From NCBI GenBank assembly GCA_945861465.1, contig CAMAVB010000023.1, positions 1 through 48,702 on the forward strand: 48,702 nucleotides of DNA, given 5' to 3'. Source of the DNA: Candidatus Kuenenia stuttgartensis (GTDB lineage Bacteria; Planctomycetota; Planctomycetia; Planctomycetales; Planctomycetaceae). Under the pieces are notes generated by a model that saw nothing but the letters and a program-made list of their open reading frames with translations, was not told where the DNA came from and made no database searches. This document shows, piece after piece, positions 1,161 to 48,702 of the stretch. Position numbers and translations under genes: made by a program. How positions within the stretch are numbered: position 1 is the first letter of the stretch; every line of letters starts with the position of its first letter.

Positions 1161-4100
1161 TTAAGCTTCCGGTGTCTTGTGCGCTGGCCGCACCTTGGGT
1201 GTAAGATGATCCAGCCGCTCACTGAGTTGCCGCGCCAGTTCCTTGACATGAGGTGAATGCAGTATCGTTTCGTGGTTCCCGTTAATATGGCAGATGTCAG
1301 GATCGTCAATGAATCGGGACCAGCCGAGATCAGGTGATGAGTCGCCGAGCAGCGACCGTGTTCTGGCACGGAAGAGGGTCAGTTTTACTGAGCACCGCTC
1401 CGGAATATAGTCGCGAAACCCAGCGAAAACGGTGCGCATCAGTTCGCGGTTCTGCGTCTGGACGCGACTCGCATCAAACACGTCGTCCAGCTCGGCTGTG
1501 TATCGCTCCCTGGATGTCAGCCGACGTCGCATATGGCGGAGCTTTCGACCGGCGCTGCCGATCCAGCGGCTGACAGAGATGTCGCGCAGCTCTTCACGTA
1601 ACCAAAACGGCAGATTCGTTACGATTCCCCGCAGCGTTTTTAGGCGCGTCCGGGTCTGCCGTGGCAAACCTCGACGTCCGGGACCAGTATCGATGACGGC
1701 CAGCAGATCGACAGTCTCGCCCATGTCGTGCAGCTGGCAGGCGACTTCATATGCCATGAAGCCACCATAGGAAAAGCCAGCCAGCGCATACGGACCATGC
1801 GGCTGATACGCTCGCAGCGCAGAGACGAAGTGGGTCGCCGTTGTGCGGAAATCCTGAAACTGTTCCAGATTCCGCGGTGACAGCGCGGGCTGCAGTCCCA
1901 GCACAGGAAAACGGGTTCCGAATTCGTCAAGGAGGGGCTTTGAAAACAGCAGTTCCCCACCGATCGACGGCATCAGAAACAACGGGCGGCCTGCACCGTT
2001 CGGCTGGAGTTCCAGCAGAGAGACCAAACCCATCTCGGAGCGCGCCTCTGCGAGCAGCGCTGCGAGGTGGCGAATCGTGCCATGCTGGAACAGCAATGCC
2101 AATGGCAGCCTTCTCCCGAACGTGGTTTCGATCCGTGCGAACAGGCGCACGGCCAACAGCGAATGACCGCCCAGCTGAAAGAAATCATCGTCAACTCCCA
2201 CTCGATCCACCGGAAGCAATTCACACCAGATCAAAGCCAGTTTATGTTCGATTATGCTGCGAGGAGCCAGGTAACTCGTTTGAAGTTCCGGACGGGAGTC
2301 GTCAGGGGCTGGCAGCGCGCGTCGATTGATCTTGCCGCTGGAGGTCAGGGGAATCACGTCGATTTCAACAAATGTCGAGGGCACCATGTACTCGGGAAGA
2401 TTGGCCCGCAGGTGTTTCCTTAAGTCAGAGGGGCTCGGCACCGTTTCCGCGGTCGTGACAAAATACGCCACCAGCCGTTTATCGCCCGGACGGTCTTCCC
2501 GCAGGATCACGACGCTGTGTGCAATATCGGGATGCGCGTTGAGTACACTTTCAATCTCACCCAGTTCAATGCGAAACCCCCGCAGCTTCACCTGATCGTC
2601 GATCCGTCCCAGGAACTCGAGGTTGCCGTCCGCACGCCACCGACATAGGTCGCCAGTGCGGTACAGTCTCGCATCGCCAGTTTGCGAGAATGGATTAGCG
2701 ACAAACTTCTCAGCCGTCAATTCCGGACGGTTCAGATAACCACGGGCCAAACCTGCTCCGCCGATGTACAGTTCACCCGGGACGCTGATCGGAACCGGCT
2801 GTCGCCGAGCGTCCAGCACGTAAACGTGAGTATTGGCAATCGGGCGACCGATCGGTATTCGCGGCTCCTTCGATGCCGCGTCACAGTGCCAGGATAATGC
2901 GTCGATGCAGCACTCTGTCGGACCATACAGATTGGTGAGCTGCACATGGGGAAGGAGTGCGAACAACTGGCGTTGGTCTGAGACAGTCAGCTCCTCACCA
3001 CCGCTAAATAGAAGCCGGAGACTGTCCAGATGAGGGAAATCCGGCTCGTCCACCAGTGCGCGCAGGAGCGTGGGAACGACCTGCAGGACTGTAATTCGTT
3101 TCTCGCTGATCGTCCGGACGAGATCCGTCGGCACCCGATGCTCACCGGGATACGCCAAGGTGAGTCGGGCGCCACAGTGCAGCGGGGCAAAGAATTCCCA
3201 TACCGAGGCGTCGAAGCTAACGGGTGTCTTCTGCAGTACATTGTCGTGGGCATCAAATGGGAATGCATTAAGCAACCAACCCATGTGGTTGGAAATGGCG
3301 CGATGCGTCAACGTCACGCCCTTTGGCGTTCCTGTCGATCCTGACGTGTACATGACATAGGCCAGGTGGTCTGCTGCGACTCCGGAAGATGGGTTAGAAC
3401 AGTCACAGGCCTTCAGCACGGCGGCTTCAATGTCGATACACGTCACGCTGCAACCAATGGGCGGAAAGCGATCGTACAGAGACGACTGCGTAACAAGATG
3501 CTCGACAGCTGCATCCTGCAGCATGAACTCCAGCCGCTGCGGCGGCAAAGCGGCATCCAGGGGCACGTAGGCTCCACCGGCCTTCAGGATACCGAGGACG
3601 CCGACGACGAGTTCTGCTGAGCGTTCCAGGCACAGTCCCACCAGCGTTTCCGGCCCGACTCCCAGCGCGATCAGATGATGGGCCAGTTGATTGGCCCGCT
3701 CGTTCAGTTCGCGATAGGTCAGCTCCTGTTCTTCAAAGATGAGGGCGATCGCATCGGGCGTTCGTTCGACCTGCTCCTCGAACAATTGATGCACGCATTT
3801 GTCGCCGGGATACTCGACCGCTGTGTCGTTCCACTCCACCAGCAGCTGATGACGCTCGGCTTTCGTCAGCAGCGGCAGATCGCTGATTGGCTGATCCGGA
3901 TCTGCGACAATCCCTTCCAGCAACGTCACGAAGTGGCCCACCATCCGCTCGATCGTCGATCCATCAAACAGATCGGTGCTATAGATCAGGATGCCGCGAA
4001 GCGTCGTCTCCCGCTGCCACACATGCATTTCCAGATCAAACCGCACCCGTTGACTGCTCGACGGCAACTGCAAGACGTCCAGATCCCGCAATGCCATACC

Positions 4101-14527: not shown

Positions 14528-14773
14528 ATGCCCGCATCCCAACGGGCCAACCACATGCCAGCCCTGGGACCGCCATCCCCCAAACCGCCGGAACCCTGAA
14601 GGGGCGATACAAATTGCGTTCCCGCGTCCCGTCATGATTCATCGTTTCCGTCGTGGGTTCGTTTGCATGTCATTGACGCGCTTGTGCCGCCCCGTTGGGG
14701 CTTGGAACATGTTATGGAACCAATTCCTGGGGCGTTGCCCCAGGCTGATATGTATTGCCCCATTCGGGGCGAA
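14528..14773. repeat. Compound palindromic (REP/BIME-like) repeat, copy 1
   Basis: Two mirrored arms surround a roughly 90-base centre. The right arm is the better preserved and holds three small hairpins: GCCCCGTTGGGGC at 14689-14701, GGGGCGTTGCCCC at 14729-14741 and GCCCCATTCGGGGC at 14757-14770. The left arm carries their diverged complements from about 14530. A second copy in the same orientation lies at 15316-15564, on the other side of the RAYT transposase. Confidence 0.8.
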
Positions 14774-15315: not shown

Positions 15316-15564
15316 CACGGCCCGAAGGGTCAATCACATGCCAGCCCAGGGCAACGCCCTGGGAATATGATCCCCGATACCGGTCGAGCCCTGAAAGGGC
15401 GGCATAAATTGCGTTTTCGCGTGAGATCATGATTTTTCAATTCTGTCGTTCGTCGGTGTGTCATCGTCCATTTGTTTCGCCCCGTTGGGGCTTGGGGACT
15501 TTGTGGACTTCCTTTCCAGGGGCGTTGCCCCAGGCTGATTTGCGGGTGCCCCATTCGGGGCGGA
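15316..15564. repeat. Compound palindromic (REP/BIME-like) repeat, copy 2
   Basis: The left arm contains AGGGCAACGCCCT at 15347-15359 and GCCCTGAAAGGGC at 15388-15400. The right arm contains GCCCCGTTGGGGC at 15479-15491, GGGGCGTTGCCCC at 15519-15531 and GCCCCATTCGGGGC at 15548-15561. The arms are inverted relative to each other, and the whole unit is a direct repeat of copy 1. It lies immediately downstream of the damaged TIR-NB-ARC gene, whose run-through frame reads into it. Confidence 0.85.
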
Positions 15565-18251: not shown

Positions 18252-18335
18252 TCAGTGAGCCGCACGGCGCTAGCCGCCAGTGTTTTCCTGCTTTGTCAGG
18301 AACAGTGACCGGTGGCTAGCGCCATTCCGCTCACC
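18252..18335. repeat. Palindromic element, same family as the one inside hsdR
   Basis: The left arm GTGAGCCGCACGGCGCTAGC and right arm GCTAGCGCCATTCCGCTCAC are inverted around a roughly 35-base centre. The central CAGTGACCGG also resembles the centre of the hsdR element (CAGTCACCGG). It is in the gap between the DUF4058 gene and the 18355 gene, both on the minus strand. The remainder of the 283-base gap shows nothing else. Confidence 0.85.
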
Positions 18336-21576: not shown

Positions 21577-21654
21577 GTAGGCCGGACCAAGCGGAGCGCC
21601 GTTCCGGCAAGGTCGGCCAAATGCCGGAACGGCGCTCCGCTTGGTCCGGCCTAC
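21577..21654. repeat. Perfect 33-bp inverted repeat
   Basis: The arm at 21577-21609, starting GTAGGCCGGACCAAGCGGAG, is repeated exactly in inverted form at 21622-21654 around a 12-base centre. It lies just past the end of the threonine aldolase gene, so it could act in transcription termination, but it is far longer and more perfect than an ordinary terminator and has no T run. It looks like a dispersed palindromic element. Confidence 0.9.
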
Positions 21655-31955: not shown

Positions 31956-32035
31956 CGGCGAGCGGGGGACGTGAGTCCCCTGATTTCTGCGGCAACCACG
32001 CGGTCAATCAGGGGATTGACATCCCCCGCTCGCCG
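31956..32035. repeat. Palindromic repeat with CGGCGAGCGGGGG arms
   Basis: The left arm begins CGGCGAGCGGGGGACGTGAG and the right arm ends CATCCCCCGCTCGCCG. An inner pair, CCCCTGATT and AATCAGGGG, extends the stem. It lies between the DUF4175-like gene and the coiled-coil protein gene on the minus strand. Confidence 0.85.
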
Positions 32036-39136: not shown

Positions 39137-39569
39137 TTTACCGCCGGAAAGATGTACTTATCCGCCGCTGCACTCATCCCACAAATCGCGATGGACTTTC
39201 CGGCTTGGATTTAGATTTCCTGGAAGACAGTCGCCACCAGTGCACAGCCACTTCTTCATCCGACCATGTTTTCACGATATCCGTTCTTGAGCATTGATTT
39301 CTGGATTTGAAGGACGCTCTGGATGACATGGCATTCGCAACTGCTGCAGCCCATCGCGACCGAGTGTATTCCGTAGCTCGCGGCAACCCACGATGTCATC
39401 GGAGTCCGGATCCTGATTGTTGGGCCCCGCCCCATCTTCTACTCGGTTCACAGTCGAAACTCACCATACTACCGCGATTATCATCCACACGATAAGCTCT
39501 CCACCATTAATGGTAAAACCGCCTCATATCCAGCCGTGCGTTCGTCCAGTCGTCTTAACCAAGAGCACC
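39137..39569. other. Spacer before the restriction-modification island
   Basis: It holds a short transposase-like remnant (39174-39290, minus strand). The other 280 bases up to hsdM have no clear gene. The hsdM promoter should lie here, but I cannot assign it. Confidence 0.5.
39174..39290 (-). pseudogene. Remnant of a REP-associated-type transposase
   Basis: The frame contains RTDIVKTWSDEEVAVHWWRL. From memory this matches the segment that follows the SNHxH motif in a class of planctomycete Y1 transposases (typically RPDVVxxWSDEEVARRWW). The HUH part and the catalytic tyrosine region are gone and the flanking residues are scrambled, so only a fragment remains. Confidence 0.4.
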
Positions 39570-41363
39570 ATGAACCAAACCAACTTGTCCTCCTTCATCT
39601 GGTCCGTAGCAGACCTCCTGCGAGGCGACTACAAGCAATCCGATTACGGCAAGGTGATTCTGCCCTTCACGGTCCTCAGGCGTCTGGACTGCGTCCTGGA
39701 GGGCACGAAAGATGCCGTTTTGAAGGAGAAGGAAAAGCGGGAAACAGCCGGCCTGAACCCGGAGCCATTTCTACTCAAGAAATCCAAACAGTTGTTCTAC
39801 AACACCTCGCCGCTCGACATGAAGACGCTGATGGGCGATCAGGACAACATCCGGGAGAACCTGTACGCCTACGTTCAGGCATTCTCACCGGCAGTGCGAG
39901 ACATCTTCGAATGCTTCGACTTCCATACACAGGTTGAGCGGCTCGCCAAAGCCGGACTGCTGTATCTGATCACCGAGAAGTTTGCTGGCATCGACCTTCA
40001 TCCCGAGACCATCAGCAACGCCCAGATGGGAACGGTGTTTGAGGAACTGATTCGAAAGTTCGCCGAACTGTCCAACGAAACCGCCGGTGAACACATGTCG
40101 CCGCGCGACGTAATCCGGCTGATGGTGAATCTGCTGTTCATCGAAGACGACGACCTGCTCTGTAAACCGGGTATCGTCAGGTCACTCTATGATCCCACGG
40201 TCGCGACGGGTGGCATGCTCTCGGTGGCTGAAGAACATCTCGCCGAATTGAACCCGGACGCCCGCCTGGTCATGTACGGGCAGGAATTGAACGCCGAGTC
40301 CTATGCGATCTGCAAGGCGGATATGTTGATCAAAGGACATGACATCAGCAACATCATCCTGGGGAACACGCTGTCAAATGATGGGCTCATTGGCAAGCTC
40401 TTCGACTACATGCTGTCCAATCCTCCGTTTGGCGTGGAATGGAAGAAGATTGAAGCCTTTATTCGCAAGGAATTCGAACAGCAGGGTTTCAACGGCCGCT
40501 TCGGTCCGGGCCTGCCACGAGTCAGCGATGGTTCACTACTGTTCCTGATGCATCTGATTTCGAAGATGCGACCGGCCAAAGACGGCGGCAGTCGGTTTGG
40601 CATCGTCCTGAACGGTTCGCCGCTGTTCACGGGCAACGCAGGCAGCGGGGAAAGTGAGATCCGCCGCTACGTGTTGGAAAACGATCTGGTCGAAGCCATC
40701 ATCGGACTGCCGACGGACATGTTCTACAACACGGGCATCAGTACGTACATCTGGATACTGACCAACCGCAAACTGGAACACCGACGCGGTAAGGTTCAGT
40801 TGATCGACGCCAGTGCCATGTGGCAGAAGATGCGAAAAAGCCTGGGGAGCAAGCGGAAGGAACTCAGCCCCGAGCACATCGAGGGAATCACACGCCTGTT
40901 TGGCGAGTGCAAAGAGGTGTATCTTGATCCTGAGACGAACAAACCGATCAGTCGGAAGGCGCTGGCCTCGGGGGTTCCGGCCGTCCCGATCAGCCGCATT
41001 TTCAAGAACGAAGACTTCGGCTATCACACGATCACGGTCGAACGTCCTCTGCGAGACGCATCCGGCAACATCGTCAAAGGCACGAAGGGCAAACTGAAAG
41101 GCAAGGTCCAGCCGGACGCGAATCTGCGTGACACAGAGAACGTGCCGCTCAGCGAAGACATTCAAGCTTACTTCAAGCGCGAAGTCCTGCCGCATGCTCC
41201 GGATGCGTGGATTGATCACGAGAGGACCAGAGTCGGCTATGAGATCCCATTCAACCGGCACTTCTATGTCTTCAAGCCGCCGCGTGATCTGGCGGCAATC
41301 GACGCGGATCTGAAAGTCGTCACCGATCGAATTCTGACGATGATCGGAGGACTGTCGAAGTGA
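39570..41363 (+). CDS. hsdM: Type I restriction-modification DNA methyltransferase subunit
   Basis: The 597-residue N6-adenine methyltransferase of a type I system. The N-terminal helical HsdM domain (SSFIWSVADLLRGDYKQSDY) precedes the SAM motif DPTVATGG at 208-215 (usual form DPxxGTGG; Ala replaces the first Gly) and the catalytic NPPF at 284-287. The C-terminal part includes RKELSPEHIEGITRLFGECK. The protein is somewhat longer than many HsdM proteins. I chose the ATG at 39570, where family similarity starts. Its TGA overlaps the GTG of the next gene by four bases. Confidence 0.96.
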   Translation: MNQTNLSSFIWSVADLLRGDYKQSDYGKVILPFTVLRRLDCVLEGTKDAVLKEKEKRETAGLNPEPFLLKKSKQLFYNTSPLDMKTLMGDQDNIRENLYAYVQAFSPAVRDIFECFDFHTQVERLAKAGLLYLITEKFAGIDLHPETISNAQMGTVFEELIRKFAELSNETAGEHMSPRDVIRLMVNLLFIEDDDLLCKPGIVRSLYDPTVATGGMLSVAEEHLAELNPDARLVMYGQELNAESYAICKADMLIKGHDISNIILGNTLSNDGLIGKLFDYMLSNPPFGVEWKKIEAFIRKEFEQQGFNGRFGPGLPRVSDGSLLFLMHLISKMRPAKDGGSRFGIVLNGSPLFTGNAGSGESEIRRYVLENDLVEAIIGLPTDMFYNTGISTYIWILTNRKLEHRRGKVQLIDASAMWQKMRKSLGSKRKELSPEHIEGITRLFGECKEVYLDPETNKPISRKALASGVPAVPISRIFKNEDFGYHTITVERPLRDASGNIVKGTKGKLKGKVQPDANLRDTENVPLSEDIQAYFKREVLPHAPDAWIDHERTRVGYEIPFNRHFYVFKPPRDLAAIDADLKVVTDRILTMIGGLSK

Positions 41364-42505
41364 ACAAGAACCAACTTGTGCTCTACTCGCAACTCTTGTC
41401 CGACATTAAGGAGCGAGTCCGCAGCGCTCAACATAGGGCGATTCTGTCTGCCAATGCGGAGATGGTCCTGATGTATTGGGACATCGGTCGGATGATTGCC
41501 GCCAAGAAGGAGCGTGAAGGCTGGGGGGCCAAAGTGATCCCTCGTTTGGCCGTCGACCTGAAGAACGAACTCCCGGAGGAAAAGGGGTTTTCTCCTGCAA
41601 ATCTCAAGCGAATGGTTCGATTTTGGAACGAATACCCAGCATTGTGCTCGATTGGCGCACAGCCCGTGCGCCAAATTGCGACTGAGGCATCTTCGACGGT
41701 CGGGAACGAAATTAGCGCACCGTCCGTGCGCCAATCGCCGGATCGAACAGGAGAGAAGCCGGACGAGGTTCTGTTTTTGAGATTAAGCTGGAGCCACAAT
41801 ATCGTCCTGATGCAGAAAATCGAGGACCTGCCGACTCGTTTGTGGTACGCCCGCCAGGCTTTGGAGCACGGCTGGTCCCGTGAAATTCTCACGGCGAACA
41901 TCAAATCTTCTGCCCACACACGGCAAGGAGCTGCCGTCAGCAATTTCGGTAATCGCTTGCCAGCGGTTCATGCTGAGCTGGCAACCGGGCTGCTCAAAGA
42001 TCCCTACTTGTTCGACTTCCTGACGATGGAAGACCATTTTCACGAACGTGAACTGGAAACTGGGCTGCTGACTCACATCGAAAAATTCCTGCTGGAACTG
42101 GGGCGTGGCTTTGCGTTCGTCGGACGTCAGTATGAACTGACCGTCAGCGACAGAGAATTCTATCTGGATCTGCTGTTCTATCACTTGCAGCTGCGTTGCT
42201 TTGTGGTCGTCGATCTGAAGAAGGGCGAATTCAAACCAGAGTATGCAGGCAAGATGAACTTCTACTGTTCGGCTGTGGATGATTTGCTGCGACATGAGCA
42301 TGACCAGCCAACACTGGGCCTGATACTGTGTCAGACCAAAGACCGCATCATTGCTGAATACTCTCTGCGAGACATCGATAAACCAATTGGCGTGGCCGAC
42401 TATGAACTGACACGAGCCCTTCCCGAAAAGCTGGCCTCCAGCCTGCCCAGCATTGAAGACATCGAAGCCGAGCTATCGAAGGATCTGGCGGAGGACGAGT
42501 CATGA
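41360..42505 (+). CDS. YhcG-type PDDEXK nuclease domain protein (DUF1016)
   Basis: A 381-residue protein. The N-terminal DUF1016 part has MVLMYWDIGRMIAAKK and LPEEKGFSPANLKRMVRFW. LSWSHNIVLMQKIEDLPTRL leads into the PDDEXK domain, with FYLDLLFYH (Asp270) and FVVVDLK (Asp285, Lys287). Such proteins often sit within type I restriction operons; their role there is not settled. It starts with GTG overlapping the hsdM stop and ends in an ATGA overlap with hsdS, so it is integral to the operon. The variable linker at about 96-126 carries two small palindromes, listed separately. Confidence 0.92.
   Translation: MNKNQLVLYSQLLSDIKERVRSAQHRAILSANAEMVLMYWDIGRMIAAKKEREGWGAKVIPRLAVDLKNELPEEKGFSPANLKRMVRFWNEYPALCSIGAQPVRQIATEASSTVGNEISAPSVRQSPDRTGEKPDEVLFLRLSWSHNIVLMQKIEDLPTRLWYARQALEHGWSREILTANIKSSAHTRQGAAVSNFGNRLPAVHAELATGLLKDPYLFDFLTMEDHFHERELETGLLTHIEKFLLELGRGFAFVGRQYELTVSDREFYLDLLFYHLQLRCFVVVDLKKGEFKPEYAGKMNFYCSAVDDLLRHEHDQPTLGLILCQTKDRIIAEYSLRDIDKPIGVADYELTRALPEKLASSLPSIEDIEAELSKDLAEDES
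41652..41734. repeat. Two small palindromes in the linker of the YhcG-like gene
   Basis: TTGGCGCAC-AGCCC-GTGCGCCAA at 41652-41674 is a perfect 9-bp hairpin. TTAGCGCAC-CGTCC-GTGCGCCAA at 41712-41734 is the same with one mismatch. The two are offset by exactly 60 bases (20 codons) and encode the similar peptides GAQPVRQ and SAPSVRQ. Confidence 0.85.
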
Positions 42506-43866
42506 GCTTTCCGAGATACCCGAAGTACAAGGACAGTGGCGTTGAGTGGCTGGGGGCGGTGCCGGAGCATTGGGGTATTGACCGATTCAAACGCTCAACC
42601 ACAGTCTGTAGGAACGGAATTTGGGGCAATGAGGCTCAGGGCGACGCTAATGATATTCAATGCGTACGAGTTGCAGATTTTGATCGCGGTCGTATGACTG
42701 TGAATGATGATGTGCCAACGATTCGCAATGTCACTGAGATTGAACGGAAAGACCGAACGTTATCTCGCGGTAACCTGCTCCTGGAGAAGTCTGGTGGTGG
42801 CGAATTGCAACCCGTTGGATTCGTGGTCCTCTTTGACCACCCAGAGCCGTCGGTCTGCTCGAACTTTGTTGCCAAGGTTGAACTTGCCACCAACATGTCT
42901 CCCTCGTATTGGCGTTACTGCCATGCTGCTGCATACGCAGTGCGCCTCAATGTTCGATCAATCAAACAAACGTCTGGCATTCAGAATCTTGATCAGTCGC
43001 AGTATCTCGATGAGCGAGCGCCATTCCCGCCCTTTCCCGAGCAAACCGCCATCGCCACCTTCCTCGACGCGGAAACCAGCAAGATCGACTCACTGATCGC
43101 GGAGCAGCGGCGGTTGATTGAGTTGCTGAAAGAAAAGCGGCAGGCGGTCATCTCCCACGCGGTGACCAAAGGACTGAACCCCGATGCGCCGATGAAGGCG
43201 TCCGGCATCGAATGGCTGGGGGATGTGCCGGAACATTGGAGCGTGGCTGCCGTAAGGTTTCGATACACAGTGCAGCTTGGGAAGATGTTGGACACGGAGA
43301 AGATCACGGGCAAGCATTTGCAGCCATACCTTCGAGTGTTCGATGTGCAGTGGGGCGCGATTAATGTTGAAGAACTTCCGCAAATGGATTTCGATCCATC
43401 CGTTCGGGATCGGTTCCGCCTTGCGCCCGGCGATCTGCTCATTAATGAGGGGGGCAGCTATCCGGGCCGTTCCGCGATCTGGAATGGGGAATTGGAGGAA
43501 TGTTATTTTCAGAAGGCGCTACACCGACTGCGCCCATGTGACGCGACGACAGACACAACGAGATTCTTTTTTTACACTATGGCGTGGGCGACTGCCCGTG
43601 GTGTCTTCACAGCAGGCGGCAACGAAAGCACGATAGAACATCTGCCTGCGGAAAAATTTCGTAAGTATCGTTTTGCATTCCCGCCAATCTCGGAACAATT
43701 TGCTATCGCAGACTTCTTAGACAATGAACTTGGCAATTTCGAAACTCTCACCACCGAAGCCACCAGTGCCATCGACCTGCTTCAAGAACGCCGCACTGCC
43801 CTGATCTCCGCCGCCGTCACCGGCAAAATCGACGTGCGTGAATTTGCCAACGTGGGGGCTGCATGA
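42502..43866 (+). CDS. hsdS: Type I restriction-modification specificity subunit
   Basis: The 454-residue DNA-recognition subunit with two target-recognition domains. The first half starts KDSGVEWLGAVPEHWG and ends FPEQTAIATFLDAETSKIDS. The coiled-coil spacer (LIAEQRRLIELLKEKRQAVI) is followed by the second TRD, opening with ASGIEWLGDVPEHWS and ending FPPISEQFAIADFLDNELG. The second conserved helix ends IDLLQERRTALISAAVTGKI. The internal repeat is normal for HsdS. It overlaps its neighbours by four bases on each side. Its last 69 or so conserved bases are present again 460 bases downstream. Confidence 0.95.
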   Translation: MSFPRYPKYKDSGVEWLGAVPEHWGIDRFKRSTTVCRNGIWGNEAQGDANDIQCVRVADFDRGRMTVNDDVPTIRNVTEIERKDRTLSRGNLLLEKSGGGELQPVGFVVLFDHPEPSVCSNFVAKVELATNMSPSYWRYCHAAAYAVRLNVRSIKQTSGIQNLDQSQYLDERAPFPPFPEQTAIATFLDAETSKIDSLIAEQRRLIELLKEKRQAVISHAVTKGLNPDAPMKASGIEWLGDVPEHWSVAAVRFRYTVQLGKMLDTEKITGKHLQPYLRVFDVQWGAINVEELPQMDFDPSVRDRFRLAPGDLLINEGGSYPGRSAIWNGELEECYFQKALHRLRPCDATTDTTRFFFYTMAWATARGVFTAGGNESTIEHLPAEKFRKYRFAFPPISEQFAIADFLDNELGNFETLTTEATSAIDLLQERRTALISAAVTGKIDVREFANVGAA

Positions 43867-44367
43867 TTACGACTCTAAAAATCACGCTCATTCGTGGCGG
43901 ATATTGCGAGGATGAATGGACGGCGAACATCGAGTTGGACGAATCGTCTGCGCTGATCGAACTTCATGACGCCATTCAAAGGGCAGTCAAATTTGACAAC
44001 GATCACGGGTTTTGTTTCTTCGTGGCGAGGACGGATCGTAGCCGCCATCAAGAGGATTTTGATGACGAGAATGGATTGGTCTTCACCAAAACTATCGGCG
44101 AAATGTTCCCATTGCCATCGAAACAATCGTTGTTCTACCTGTTCGACTGGGGAGACTCGTGGATATTCAAGGTCTCGGCGACGCGCAAACGCCTTAAGGA
44201 ACCCGCCACCGGTGTGAGCTACCCCAGAGTTGATAGCGAATTGGGAACAAGAACTGTGCAGTATCCGCCAAACGACGAAGACGAATAATGATTTTCTCCA
44301 TCGACCTGCTTCAAGAACGCCGCACGGCCCTGATCTCCGCTGCCGTCACCGGCAAGATCGACGTACG
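43770..44367 (+). repeat. Direct repeats of the hsdS 3' end flanking the pRiA4b-like gene
   Basis: Copy 1 is 43770-43838 inside hsdS and copy 2 is 44299-44367. They align over 69 bases with about four or five substitutions, mostly at third codon positions, and both encode IDLLQERRTALISAAVTGKI plus DVR. Confidence 0.92.
43863..44288 (+). CDS. Plasmid pRiA4b ORF-3-like protein
   Basis: A 141-residue protein with the pRiA4b ORF-3 family pattern: an N-terminal strand (LKITLIRGG), LIELHDAIQRAVKFDNDHGF, and FYLFDWGDSWIFKVSATRK. The family is widespread on mobile DNA with no firm function. Here it begins in an ATGA overlap with hsdS and its TAA shares a base with the ATG of the following 35-codon frame. 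It therefore sits precisely between the end of hsdS and a second copy of the hsdS end, suggesting insertion by recombination at the hsdS tail. Confidence 0.8.
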   Translation: MITTLKITLIRGGYCEDEWTANIELDESSALIELHDAIQRAVKFDNDHGFCFFVARTDRSRHQEDFDDENGLVFTKTIGEMFPLPSKQSLFYLFDWGDSWIFKVSATRKRLKEPATGVSYPRVDSELGTRTVQYPPNDEDE

Positions 44368-45670: not shown

Positions 45671-46194
45671 AACGTGATAACAAATACTTGCTCGATGCTG
45701 ACACGTTCATGACTGCCCATAGGCAGCACTACCGGTTTTCATTTTGCCCGGCTTATTGGAAAGCGATCTTGTTGCATCATGGCAGTGACAGTGTTGCGAG
45801 CATTGTGCAGGTTCGGAAAGAACTTCTCCGGGGCAAGGACGCATTAAGCGGATGGGTCGCGGATGATGTCCCGGGATCATTCTTCAAGGAAACGACGGAC
45901 GCCAAAGTTCTGCAGACATATTCGACAATCGCGAAATGGGTTGTGTCACAGCCGCATTTGGCACCCGCTGCCCAGGCGAAGTTTGCAAGTGGCGCTGACG
46001 GCTGGTTGGTTGCGTACGCGAAAGTCAATGGGTATGCGGTTTGTTCTTACGAGGTGTCGGCACCAGAATCCAAGTCGAATATCAAGCTTCCTGACGTTGC
46101 AAACCAGTTTGGTGTGATCTGCGCAAAGCCGCCTGAAATGATGGAGAATCTCGGTGTCAGAATGATTCTTCCACGCAAGGTTCCGGATACATGA
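45667..46194 (+). CDS. DUF4411 family PIN-like protein
   Basis: The 175-residue protein starts KRDNKYLLDADTFMTAHRQH; the LLDADTF aspartates are the first acidic pair of a PIN-type ribonuclease site. A Glu in VRKELLRG and the late GADGWLVAYAKV Asp fit the remaining acidic positions. DUF4411 proteins usually follow an ImmA/IrrE gene, as here, and are presumed toxins of the pair. Both ends are ATGA overlaps, with the protease gene upstream and hsdR downstream, so it is expressed within the restriction operon. Confidence 0.85.
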   Translation: MKRDNKYLLDADTFMTAHRQHYRFSFCPAYWKAILLHHGSDSVASIVQVRKELLRGKDALSGWVADDVPGSFFKETTDAKVLQTYSTIAKWVVSQPHLAPAAQAKFASGADGWLVAYAKVNGYAVCSYEVSAPESKSNIKLPDVANQFGVICAKPPEMMENLGVRMILPRKVPDT

Positions 46195-48702
46195 GCCTTC
46201 ACAAAGAAATCAGCTTCGAAGTCGAAATCTGCGGACACCTGGCCGGACAGGGTTGGGCGTATGCCGACAAGGATGCCGCCGAGTATGACCGCAAGCTGGC
46301 ACTGTTTCCCGCTGACGTCCTCGCATGGGTCCAGGCGACACAGTCTGCCGCATGGGACGCTCTGACGAAGAATCACGGGGCCGCTGCTGGGGATACGCTG
46401 TTGAGCCGTCTGCGGCAGTCGATCGATCAGCAGGGTACACTGCATGTCCTGCGGCATGGCTTCGATGTCCTCGGTCTGCGGAAGGAAATCAAGCTGGCTC
46501 AGTTCAAACCTGCTCTGGCCATGAACCCCGACATCATGTCACGCTATGCCGCCAATAGGCTGCGAGTCGTCCGGCAGGTGCGGTATTCGCTGCACAATGA
46601 GAACAGCATCGATCTGGTGTTGTTCCTGAACGGCGTTCCGGTCGCGACAGCGGAACTGAAAACCGATTTCACTCAAAGCATTGATGATGCCGTCGATCAG
46701 TACCGCTTTGACCGCAACCCGTCACCCAAAGGCCAGAACCCGGAACCGATGCTGTCGTTTCCCAACGGCGCATTGGTTCACTTTGCCGTGAGCAACTGCG
46801 AAGTTCGCATGACAACGCGGCTGGACGGCACCCGGACACGTTTCCTGCCGTTCAACCTCGGCGACAATGGAGCGGCAGGCAATCCCCTGAATCCCAACGG
46901 CCACCCGACAGCCTACCTGTGGGAACAAGTCTGGGAGCGTGATAGTTGGCTGGAAATCCTCGGGCGCTACCTGGTGGCTGAACGTGACGACAAGAAGAAC
47001 CTGAAGACGATCATCTTTCCGCGTTATCATCAGTTGGATGTGACGCGGAAACTTCAGGCCGCGATACTGGCAGAAGGTGCGGGGCAGAAGTATCTGATTC
47101 AGCATTCGGCCGGGTCGGGCAAGACGAATTCGATTGCATGGTCAGCGCACTTCCTCGCGGATCTGCATGATGCCGACAACAAGAAGGTGTTCGACACCGT
47201 TCTGGTGATCTCTGACCGCAACGTGATCGACAGTCAGTTGCAGGAGGCTATCTTCGGCTTCGAACGCACAACCGGCGTGGTTGCGACCATCAAAGGCGAT
47301 GGCGGCAGCAAGAGTTCCGAACTGGCCGAAGCATTGTCCGGCGATAAGAAGATTGTCGTCTGCACGATTCAGACTTTTCCGTTCGCCATCAAGGCCGTGC
47401 GGGAATTGGCAGCGACTGGTGGTAAGCGCTTCGCCGTGATTCCCGATGAGGCGCACAGTTCGCAGACAGGGGAAGCGGCGTCGAAACTGAAGCAGGTATT
47501 GTCTGCAGAAGAGCAGAAGGAACTGGCCGACGGCGGCGAGGTCAGCAGTGAAGATATTCTGGTCGCGACGATGTCCAGTCGGGCAAACGATCAGGGAATC
47601 ACGTATGTCGCGTATACGGCGACGCCCAAGGCCAAGACGATGGAACTGTTTGGCCGTCGTCCTGATCCATCGAAACCAGCGGGTGCAGGCAATCTGCCGC
47701 AACCGTTCCATGTCTATTCCATGCGGCAGGCGATTGAGGAAGGTTTCATCCTCGATGTGCTCCAGAATTACACGTCGTACAAGCTGGCATTCAAGCTGGC
47801 CCAAATCAGTGAGCCGCAAGGCGCTAGCCGCGGGTCGAGTTCTGACGGCGGACAGTCACCGGCGGCTAGTGCCTTGCCGCTCACTGACGTTGAAGTCGAA
47901 CGTAGCGCGGCCATGAAAAAGCTGATGGGGTGGGTCCGTCTGCATCCATACAACATCGCTCAGAAGGTTCAGATCGTTGTCGAGCATTACCGCGAAACAG
48001 TGGCACCGCTGCTCGACGGTAAGGGCAAGGCGATGGTGGTCGTCAGCAGTCGCCTGGAAGCTGTTCGCTGGCAACTGGCGATCAACAAGTACATCAAAGA
48101 CAAAGGCTATTCGCTGACGACGGTGGTGGCGTTCTCCGGGGAAGTGGACGATAAAGAATCCGGGCCGGAACCATTCAAGGAAACCAGCAAGGAACTGAAC
48201 CCGAACCTGAACGGGCGTGACATCCGCGAAGCCTTCAAAGGCGACGAATACCAGATCCTGCTGGTGGCGAACAAGTTCCAGACCGGCTTCGATGCGCCGC
48301 TGCTGTGTGGCATGTACGTCGATAAACGACTAGCAGGCATTCAGGCAGTCCAGACACTGTCCCGGCTGAACCGCAGCTATGAACGTGACGGCGTGAAGAA
48401 GGACAAAACGTACGTTCTGGACTTCGTGAACGAGCCAGACGAGATCCTGGCTGCCTTCAAGACTTACTATGCGACGGCGGAACTGTCTGACGCCACCGAT
48501 CCGAATATCGTCCTGAACCTGCGCTCAAAACTGGACGCTGCGGGATACTACGACGAATTCGAAGTCAATCGCGTCGTGGAAGTGGAACTCAACCCCAAGA
48601 GTAAGCAGAGCGATCTACAGGCCGCTGTGACTCCTGTGGCAGACCGGCTGGTCAAACGGTTCGCCGCTGCCAAGGTCGCGTACAGGGATGCTCAGGAAGC
48701 CA
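46191..48702 (+). CDS. hsdR: Type I restriction endonuclease subunit R (incomplete at window end)
   Basis: The motor and nuclease subunit. The 837 codons visible begin MSLHKEISFEVEICGHLAGQ. The PD-(D/E)xK nuclease site is SIDLVLFLNGVPVATAELK. The helicase motor has Walker A SAGSGKTNS (Lys311), the DEAH box IPDEAHSSQTG, AYTATPKAKTMELFG, and the late motifs VANKFQTGFDAPLL and QTLSRLNRSY. The gene continues past the window edge, so the C-terminal HsdM-contact region is missing. Between KLAFKLAQI and VEVERSAAMKKLMGW there is an extra Gly/Ser/Ala-rich stretch encoded by a palindromic DNA element (47806-47887). The start overlaps the DUF4411 stop (ATGA). Confidence 0.96.
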   Translation, partial: MSLHKEISFEVEICGHLAGQGWAYADKDAAEYDRKLALFPADVLAWVQATQSAAWDALTKNHGAAAGDTLLSRLRQSIDQQGTLHVLRHGFDVLGLRKEIKLAQFKPALAMNPDIMSRYAANRLRVVRQVRYSLHNENSIDLVLFLNGVPVATAELKTDFTQSIDDAVDQYRFDRNPSPKGQNPEPMLSFPNGALVHFAVSNCEVRMTTRLDGTRTRFLPFNLGDNGAAGNPLNPNGHPTAYLWEQVWERDSWLEILGRYLVAERDDKKNLKTIIFPRYHQLDVTRKLQAAILAEGAGQKYLIQHSAGSGKTNSIAWSAHFLADLHDADNKKVFDTVLVISDRNVIDSQLQEAIFGFERTTGVVATIKGDGGSKSSELAEALSGDKKIVVCTIQTFPFAIKAVRELAATGGKRFAVIPDEAHSSQTGEAASKLKQVLSAEEQKELADGGEVSSEDILVATMSSRANDQGITYVAYTATPKAKTMELFGRRPDPSKPAGAGNLPQPFHVYSMRQAIEEGFILDVLQNYTSYKLAFKLAQISEPQGASRGSSSDGGQSPAASALPLTDVEVERSAAMKKLMGWVRLHPYNIAQKVQIVVEHYRETVAPLLDGKGKAMVVVSSRLEAVRWQLAINKYIKDKGYSLTTVVAFSGEVDDKESGPEPFKETSKELNPNLNGRDIREAFKGDEYQILLVANKFQTGFDAPLLCGMYVDKRLAGIQAVQTLSRLNRSYERDGVKKDKTYVLDFVNEPDEILAAFKTYYATAELSDATDPNIVLNLRSKLDAAGYYDEFEVNRVVEVELNPKSKQSDLQAAVTPVADRLVKRFAAAKVAYRDAQEA
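47806..47887. repeat. Palindromic element inserted in frame in hsdR
   Basis: Arms of 26 bases at 47806-47831 (starting TCAGTGAGCCGCAAGGCGCT) and 47862-47887 are inverted with two mismatches around a 30-base centre. Read through in the hsdR frame it encodes a stretch starting SEPQGASRGSSSDGG and ending LPLTD, with no stop. It is the same family as the intergenic element at 18252-18335. Confidence 0.92.

Follow-up and report, generated by a model that had tools for sequence, protein, structure and literature searches.

The insert-bearing hsdR and its surroundings

The window (the whole stretch of 48,702 nt that was analysed) carries a type I restriction-modification cluster with hsdM, hsdS and hsdR (Table 1). 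The contig ends inside hsdR, of which 837 residues are visible. Nuclease, helicase and domain-3 segments and the HsdR fold were found in this partial protein by Pfam, PADLOC and Foldseek, with the EcoR124I HsdR as the top Foldseek match; TIGR00348 gave 158.8 bits on the partial protein, below its cut-off of 284.55 bits. Between hsdM and hsdS (41360-42505) lies a gene for which PADLOC gave a match to a candidate defence family, PDC-S02, at E 4e-140. Two 70-nt copies of the 3′ end of hsdS, 43769-43838 and 44298-44367, could be observed, which are 94% identical and 529 bp apart. In the congeneric genome G014, three matches to this piece were located upstream of hsdR, and the copies are possibly a trace of hsdS shuffling.

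Table 1. Positions of the hsdR element, its parts and related features in the window
Feature	Position	Strand	Basis
hsdM, type I methyltransferase, same cluster as hsdR	39417-41363	+	PADLOC
hsdS, type I specificity subunit, same cluster	42502-43866	+	PADLOC
hsdR, R subunit of a type I restriction enzyme, 3′ end beyond the contig	46191-48702	+	Pfam, PADLOC, Foldseek
90 bp replacing 27 bp of native linker (NDGKEFDDK in G014 and G011)	47802-47891	+	orthologue alignment
REPIN-like element, two 27-nt units around a 22-bp spacer	47809-47884		fold, unit model, pairing
Left 27-nt unit, C7/G24 subtype, exact consensus	47809-47835	+	unit model, 49.8 bits
Spacer; right end GGACAGTC like the spacer end of the 18255-18334 element	47836-47857		comparison of copies
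Right 27-nt unit, G7/C24 subtype, one mismatch	47858-47884	-	unit model, 46.5 bits
Intergenic relative; units 18255-18281 (+) and 18308-18334 (-), 26-bp spacer	18255-18334		fold, unit model
Y1 transposase gene P0002	14805-15260	-	Pfam

Within hsdR a 76-bp palindrome was found, in which two 27-nt units (GTGAGCSGCAAGGCGCTAGCCGCSGGT) stand inverted around a spacer. A sequence-only reading of the same DNA had described an 82-bp palindrome with inverted arms at 47806-47887. The arms were borne out, since RNA folding of that span gave -61.9 kcal/mol (z -8.4), with none of 200 shuffles as stable, and 28 of 38 positions were paired in the 76-bp core, compared with 20 in the top 76-bp stretch elsewhere in hsdR. 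Regarding the extent, the palindrome itself stood, but the edges common to other copies are those of the 76-bp core; the outer TCA/TGA of the longer span occurs beside few other paired copies only. The proposed kinship with an intergenic element at 18252-18335 was likewise confirmed by two unit matches in each of both elements.

Either unit can form its own bulged hairpin with the 5′ foot ahead of it, and the two inverted REP units fold together as one hairpin, which is the anatomy of a REPIN. A small stem, CSGC-AA-GGC-GCTA-GCC-GCSG, is proposed to follow the GTGAG foot. It is supported by covariation of unit positions 7 and 24, where G-C is swapped for C-G (14 and 7 rows; 38 units from 30 loci, 23 distinct); covariation on both sides was seen at this one stem pair only. 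GTGA serves as the foot of the unit, its first position being A, T or C in some of the copies, and differs from the GT[AG]G foot of the GTAG-tagged REP superfamily. Two further palindromes were observed between ORFs of the window, one at 21578-21653 that is stronger than that in hsdR (32/38 pairs over 76 bp) and one at 31958-32033 (26/38 pairs over 76 bp).

Insertion into the HsdR linker

The reading frame of hsdR was found to be open through the element and, as had been read from the letters, the translation contains no stop. Orthologues of two genomes of the same genus, L120 in G014 and L121 in G011, are collinear with the window from 46190 to 47800/47801 and resume at 47892, with flank DNA identities of 88.9-91.2%. 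Where these orthologues encode NDGKEFDDK, the window HsdR has 30 residues, QISEPQGASRGSSSDGGQSPAASALPLTDV, giving a net gain of 21 residues in frame. The earlier estimate of about 27 added residues therefore had to be corrected, 30 codons standing against nine and the native linker being partly lost. As both orthologues are empty, the element is shown, on the evidence of aligned genes, to be an insertion in hsdR with loss of part of the native linker, as the sequence-only reading had supposed. The native linker comprised nine residues in 11 of 11 close homologues compared.

The site is spanned by 68 of the 75 HsdR loci taken from named genomes, and 67 of these are without the insert, in agreement with the statement in the earlier reading that typical HsdR proteins are continuous here; conservation of the extra residues in HsdR proteins without the palindrome had been named beforehand as an argument against that reading. 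The compared stretch was 23-27 residues long in the 67 homologues and 44 in the remaining one, L206. A first set of 19 other loci, overlapping with the 75, contained 18 empty sites and one locus, L138 (31% identity), with an unrelated longer stretch. The same insertion was found in one of 397 genomes of the class, the window's own; the Caspian genome carrying L206 lies outside that sample. Neither a rule for the target nor a duplication of it could be made out, and comparison of the insertion-site flanks by eye revealed no common target.

The sole exception among the 68, L206 (JAQBZB010000225), derives from bin casp150-mb.46 of a Caspian Sea planctomycete (G411). It showed a 67-bp in-frame pair of the same family at 3779-3845, ATGAGCGGAATGGCGCTAGCCACCGAT and GTGAGCGGCACGGCGCTAGCCGCCGGT, inserted a few bases from the window's site at almost the same codon but belonging to a different subfamily. 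The other hsdR of this bin, L180, is empty and has 89% DNA identity next to the site. Since the exact unit of L206 is unlike the window's units and is, by score, of a type numerous in its own genome, we infer that the window and L206 represent two separate insertions. L206 is without residues 22-105 and its pieces are spread over three frames, so that it may be a dead copy.

The window's genome is a binned draft of 474 contigs in which the unit is repeated, and a copy from elsewhere might in principle have been joined into hsdR during assembly. Such an artefact is highly improbable, however, as the hsdR genes of G014 and G011 align in unbroken order on either side of the element, the reading frame is maintained, none of the other listed pairs shows the spacer of this copy, and the same arrangement recurs with another subfamily in a second genome (L206). 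An element of 76 bp is, moreover, shorter than common read lengths.

Structure models, which had been suggested as a check, were obtained with AlphaFold for both alleles. The HsdR with the insert (mean pLDDT 75.6) showed values below 50 at residues 538-587 and a coil between helices 530-539 and 571-582, and the empty orthologue (mean pLDDT 78.3) showed values below 50 at residues 539-565 and a coil at 538-549. The insertion site is thereby predicted to be an unstructured linker, modelled as coil in both proteins with low confidence (pLDDT <50) exactly there. Outside the linker, dN/dS was 0.042 against G014 and 0.052 against G011, and against G014 it was 0.055 before and 0.023 after the insert; by these codon comparisons hsdR is shown to be under purifying selection. 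The Walker A, DEAH, motif III, nuclease and motif V-VI segments were unchanged. The dN/dS of 0.04-0.05 together with the intact motifs suggests that the window HsdR works, and lends support to the earlier view that the insert is tolerated. Alternatively, hsdR might be decaying and the insert might be an early scar, as the split and shortened L206 would recall; this is unlikely in the window, where 837 codons are open, the catalytic motifs are intact and dN/dS is low, although pairwise rates could miss a very recent loss of constraint.

The repeat family and its candidate mover

The 8.2-Mb genome was found to contain 70 exact copies of the 12-mer GGCGCTAGCCGC, compared with 8 of the reversed control. 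With a model of the 27-nt unit, at least 103 matches at E 0.001 were obtained, a lower bound because 150 of 7649 first-look candidates were scored, and these form 75 elements. About 100 further unit copies thus accompany the element in hsdR; their absence had been named beforehand as an argument against the reading, and the high copy number is that of REPINs. The 75 elements comprised 28 inverted pairs, with spacers of 15-29 bp in 27 pairs and of 150 bp in one, and 47 elements counted as single units, several of which keep a degraded second unit. The relatives of the window's genome are Planctomycetaceae bins. Among 59 genomes (own included), unit matches were found in 17, 12 of these belonging to the 18 genomes of this genus; G005, of the same genus, had 123 and G411 had 116. 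Many intergenic copies (L002, L063, L065, L072, L075 and others) also have longer flanks in common outside the units, such as CGGTCAGATTTGAGGTTTT at one end and ACACGTCCCTCAGTC at the opposite end, which gives the impression of a REPIN within a larger repeat; the in-gene copies are without these flanks.

REPINs are described as REP doublets forming hairpins (PMC3116915). As presented in that source, they have in common with the hsdR element the inverted short palindromic units, the spacer, the many copies and the mostly extragenic location, and they are thought to be moved in trans by a Y1-type RAYT, as is proposed here. The hsdR element differs in its GTGA foot and in sitting in a gene, and no cognate transposase was found in its genome. 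There, the stretches around all 19 Y1_Tnp matches were scanned for the unit, allowing up to 8 mismatches at 15 loci and up to 6 at the other 4, and no transposase flanked by it was detected in this draft assembly; a related second REP family lies near two of them, L043 and L044. Arrays of this second family (GCGAGCGGCAGGGCGTCAGCCCTCCGA and variants) could be observed around Y1 transposase genes at L043, L044 and L366, in G000 and G014. The Y1 gene of the window itself, P0002, was rejected as the mover because the repeats beside it, two imperfect 56-nt sequences in inverted orientation (14716-14771 and 15318-15373), have no relation to the hsdR element.

In the congener G005, a gene for a Y1_Tnp protein of 191 residues (G005:C277) is located between two inverted units, one with 2 mismatches and one exact. 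It scored 25.1 bits with Pfam Y1_Tnp (cut-off 23) and was not among the matches to NF047646 (REP-associated tyrosine transposase) at E 0.01 or better. Beyond this locus, none of 30 scanned Y1 loci of nine relatives came under 7 mismatches to the unit. The closest relative of the G005 gene in the window's genome showed 35% identity, and G411 contained short pieces only of a gene of this type, some with stops. Because the G005 gene has two inverted flanking units, the mover is likely to be a Y1 (IS200-like) transposase; in the window's genome it may have been lost or may be unassembled. Class 3 Y1 transposases are reported mainly from Planctomycetes, Acidobacteria and Proteobacteria, with atypical high-copy repeats (PMC6006769). 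The HUH and Y----Q motifs given there for this class can be matched by eye to NHVH and YVTEAQ of the G005 gene, whereas the class 3 repeats have a CnGA foot and GTGA predominates here.

In-gene copies and parallel insertions

The in-gene count proposed earlier gave 11 of 75 elements inside ORFs of at least 285 aa, compared with 41.6 expected from 3000 random placements in the same loci, indicating that genes are avoided by the family; as in REPINs, most elements (64/75) are not inside such ORFs. These numbers rest on ORF calls without a gene finder. Coding support was obtained for 7 of the 11, by aligned homologues for hsdR, C317 (DUF6797, LamG, cytochrome c) and C13 (GDSL-like), and by Pfam for C291 (Toprim), C1 (DUF1581/1583), C9 (NACHT, FGE-sulfatase) and C99 (halogenase-like). 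The unit is translated as [VML]S[GR][KT]ALAAG in six of the seven, hsdR using the other open frame.

Taken together, the element is very probably a REPIN-like, non-autonomous member of a numerous family that was moved by a Y1 transposase and inserted into the hsdR linker that joins two helices before the second helicase domain, where it is tolerated. An IS200-like HUH transposase would have acted in trans on single-stranded hairpins, and some 12-13 bp of the native linker would have been lost at or after insertion, which would have set the frame. The copy would have survived as one frame of the pair is stop-free and as it lies in an unstructured linker, and the enzyme would thus work with a Gly/Ser/Ala/Pro-rich linker longer by 21 residues. 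Copies that entered a folded part or did not keep the frame would have disappeared, in line with the low number of family members found in genes.

The unit in C317 was also found in the G011 orthologue, while the G004 orthologue is empty. In the G003 orthologue this junction is occupied by 99 bp, in frame, of another REP family, GCGAGCGGCAGGGCGTCAGCCCTCCGA, the one seen in the L043 arrays. Each of the two genes, hsdR and that for the DUF6797/LamG protein, has been entered by two distinct insertions, which lie at identical or almost identical codons in different genomes. These repeated insertions at the same linkers are the most striking observation. It is conceivable, if rather doubtful, that certain protein linkers of planctomycetes, among them the helicase linker of restriction enzymes, are entered by REPINs again and again, that a few linker codons are hot spots through target preference or tolerance, and that REP families without kinship thereby give rise, each on its own, to linker peptides in the same positions. 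The two natural pairs of parallel insertions can be used to test whether REPINs choose their sites or merely survive there.

The same parallels might point to selection for the insert, with a longer linker or an mRNA hairpin tuning the restriction enzyme: two subfamilies entered the same hsdR loop, the hairpin is very stable, and in the DUF6797/LamG gene, where relatives have two different REP families at one codon, a REP-derived peptide is common to G000 and G011. A benefit of this kind nevertheless appears improbable, as 67 of 68 homologues manage without an insert and L206, the second hsdR copy, appears damaged; one allele pair, rather than a series, cannot separate tolerance from benefit. 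On the preferred reading of a tolerated insertion, the empty alleles document a miniature mobile element joining a defence enzyme that looks functional, which has hardly been described in this phylum, and the GTGA-tagged family together with the G005 transposase between two units provides a testable mover.

In-frame REPs in genes are already known, and the hsdR case adds to them. PMC3733652 reports GTAG- and CGTC-tagged REPs and REP dimers in ORFs, encoding 20-30 residues, with a preference for DNA repair genes and many cases in DNA-handling proteins; it also mentions two Xanthomonas recB genes struck at about the same site, and REP families in Planctomycetes. Compared with that account, the tag here is GTGA and the parallel insertions are of different subfamilies or families; the words 'restriction' and 'hsdR' are absent from the main text of that source. 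Among open-licence papers, judged by title and start of abstract, no report of a palindromic insertion in hsdR like this was found. The palindromic elements (RPEs) of Rickettsia, reviewed in PMC2229807, enter genes in frame and are translated, and the sequence-only reading had likened the element to them. The likeness is apt for its behaviour, but in anatomy the element is closer to REP/REPIN sequences: RPEs are described there as 105-146 bp long and are presumably of other sequence, whereas a 27-nt REP unit is present here, in the phylum Planctomycetota.

Among the remaining in-ORF copies, those in C48 and C79 are located at the N-terminal edge and may precede the true start, and those in C408 and C417 lie in ORFs that gave no Pfam match. 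The peptide in C13 is common to G014; the linker of the other homologues is variable, and no clean empty site was seen among them. For C291, one paralogue showed similar residues and a distant paralogue showed a different linker.
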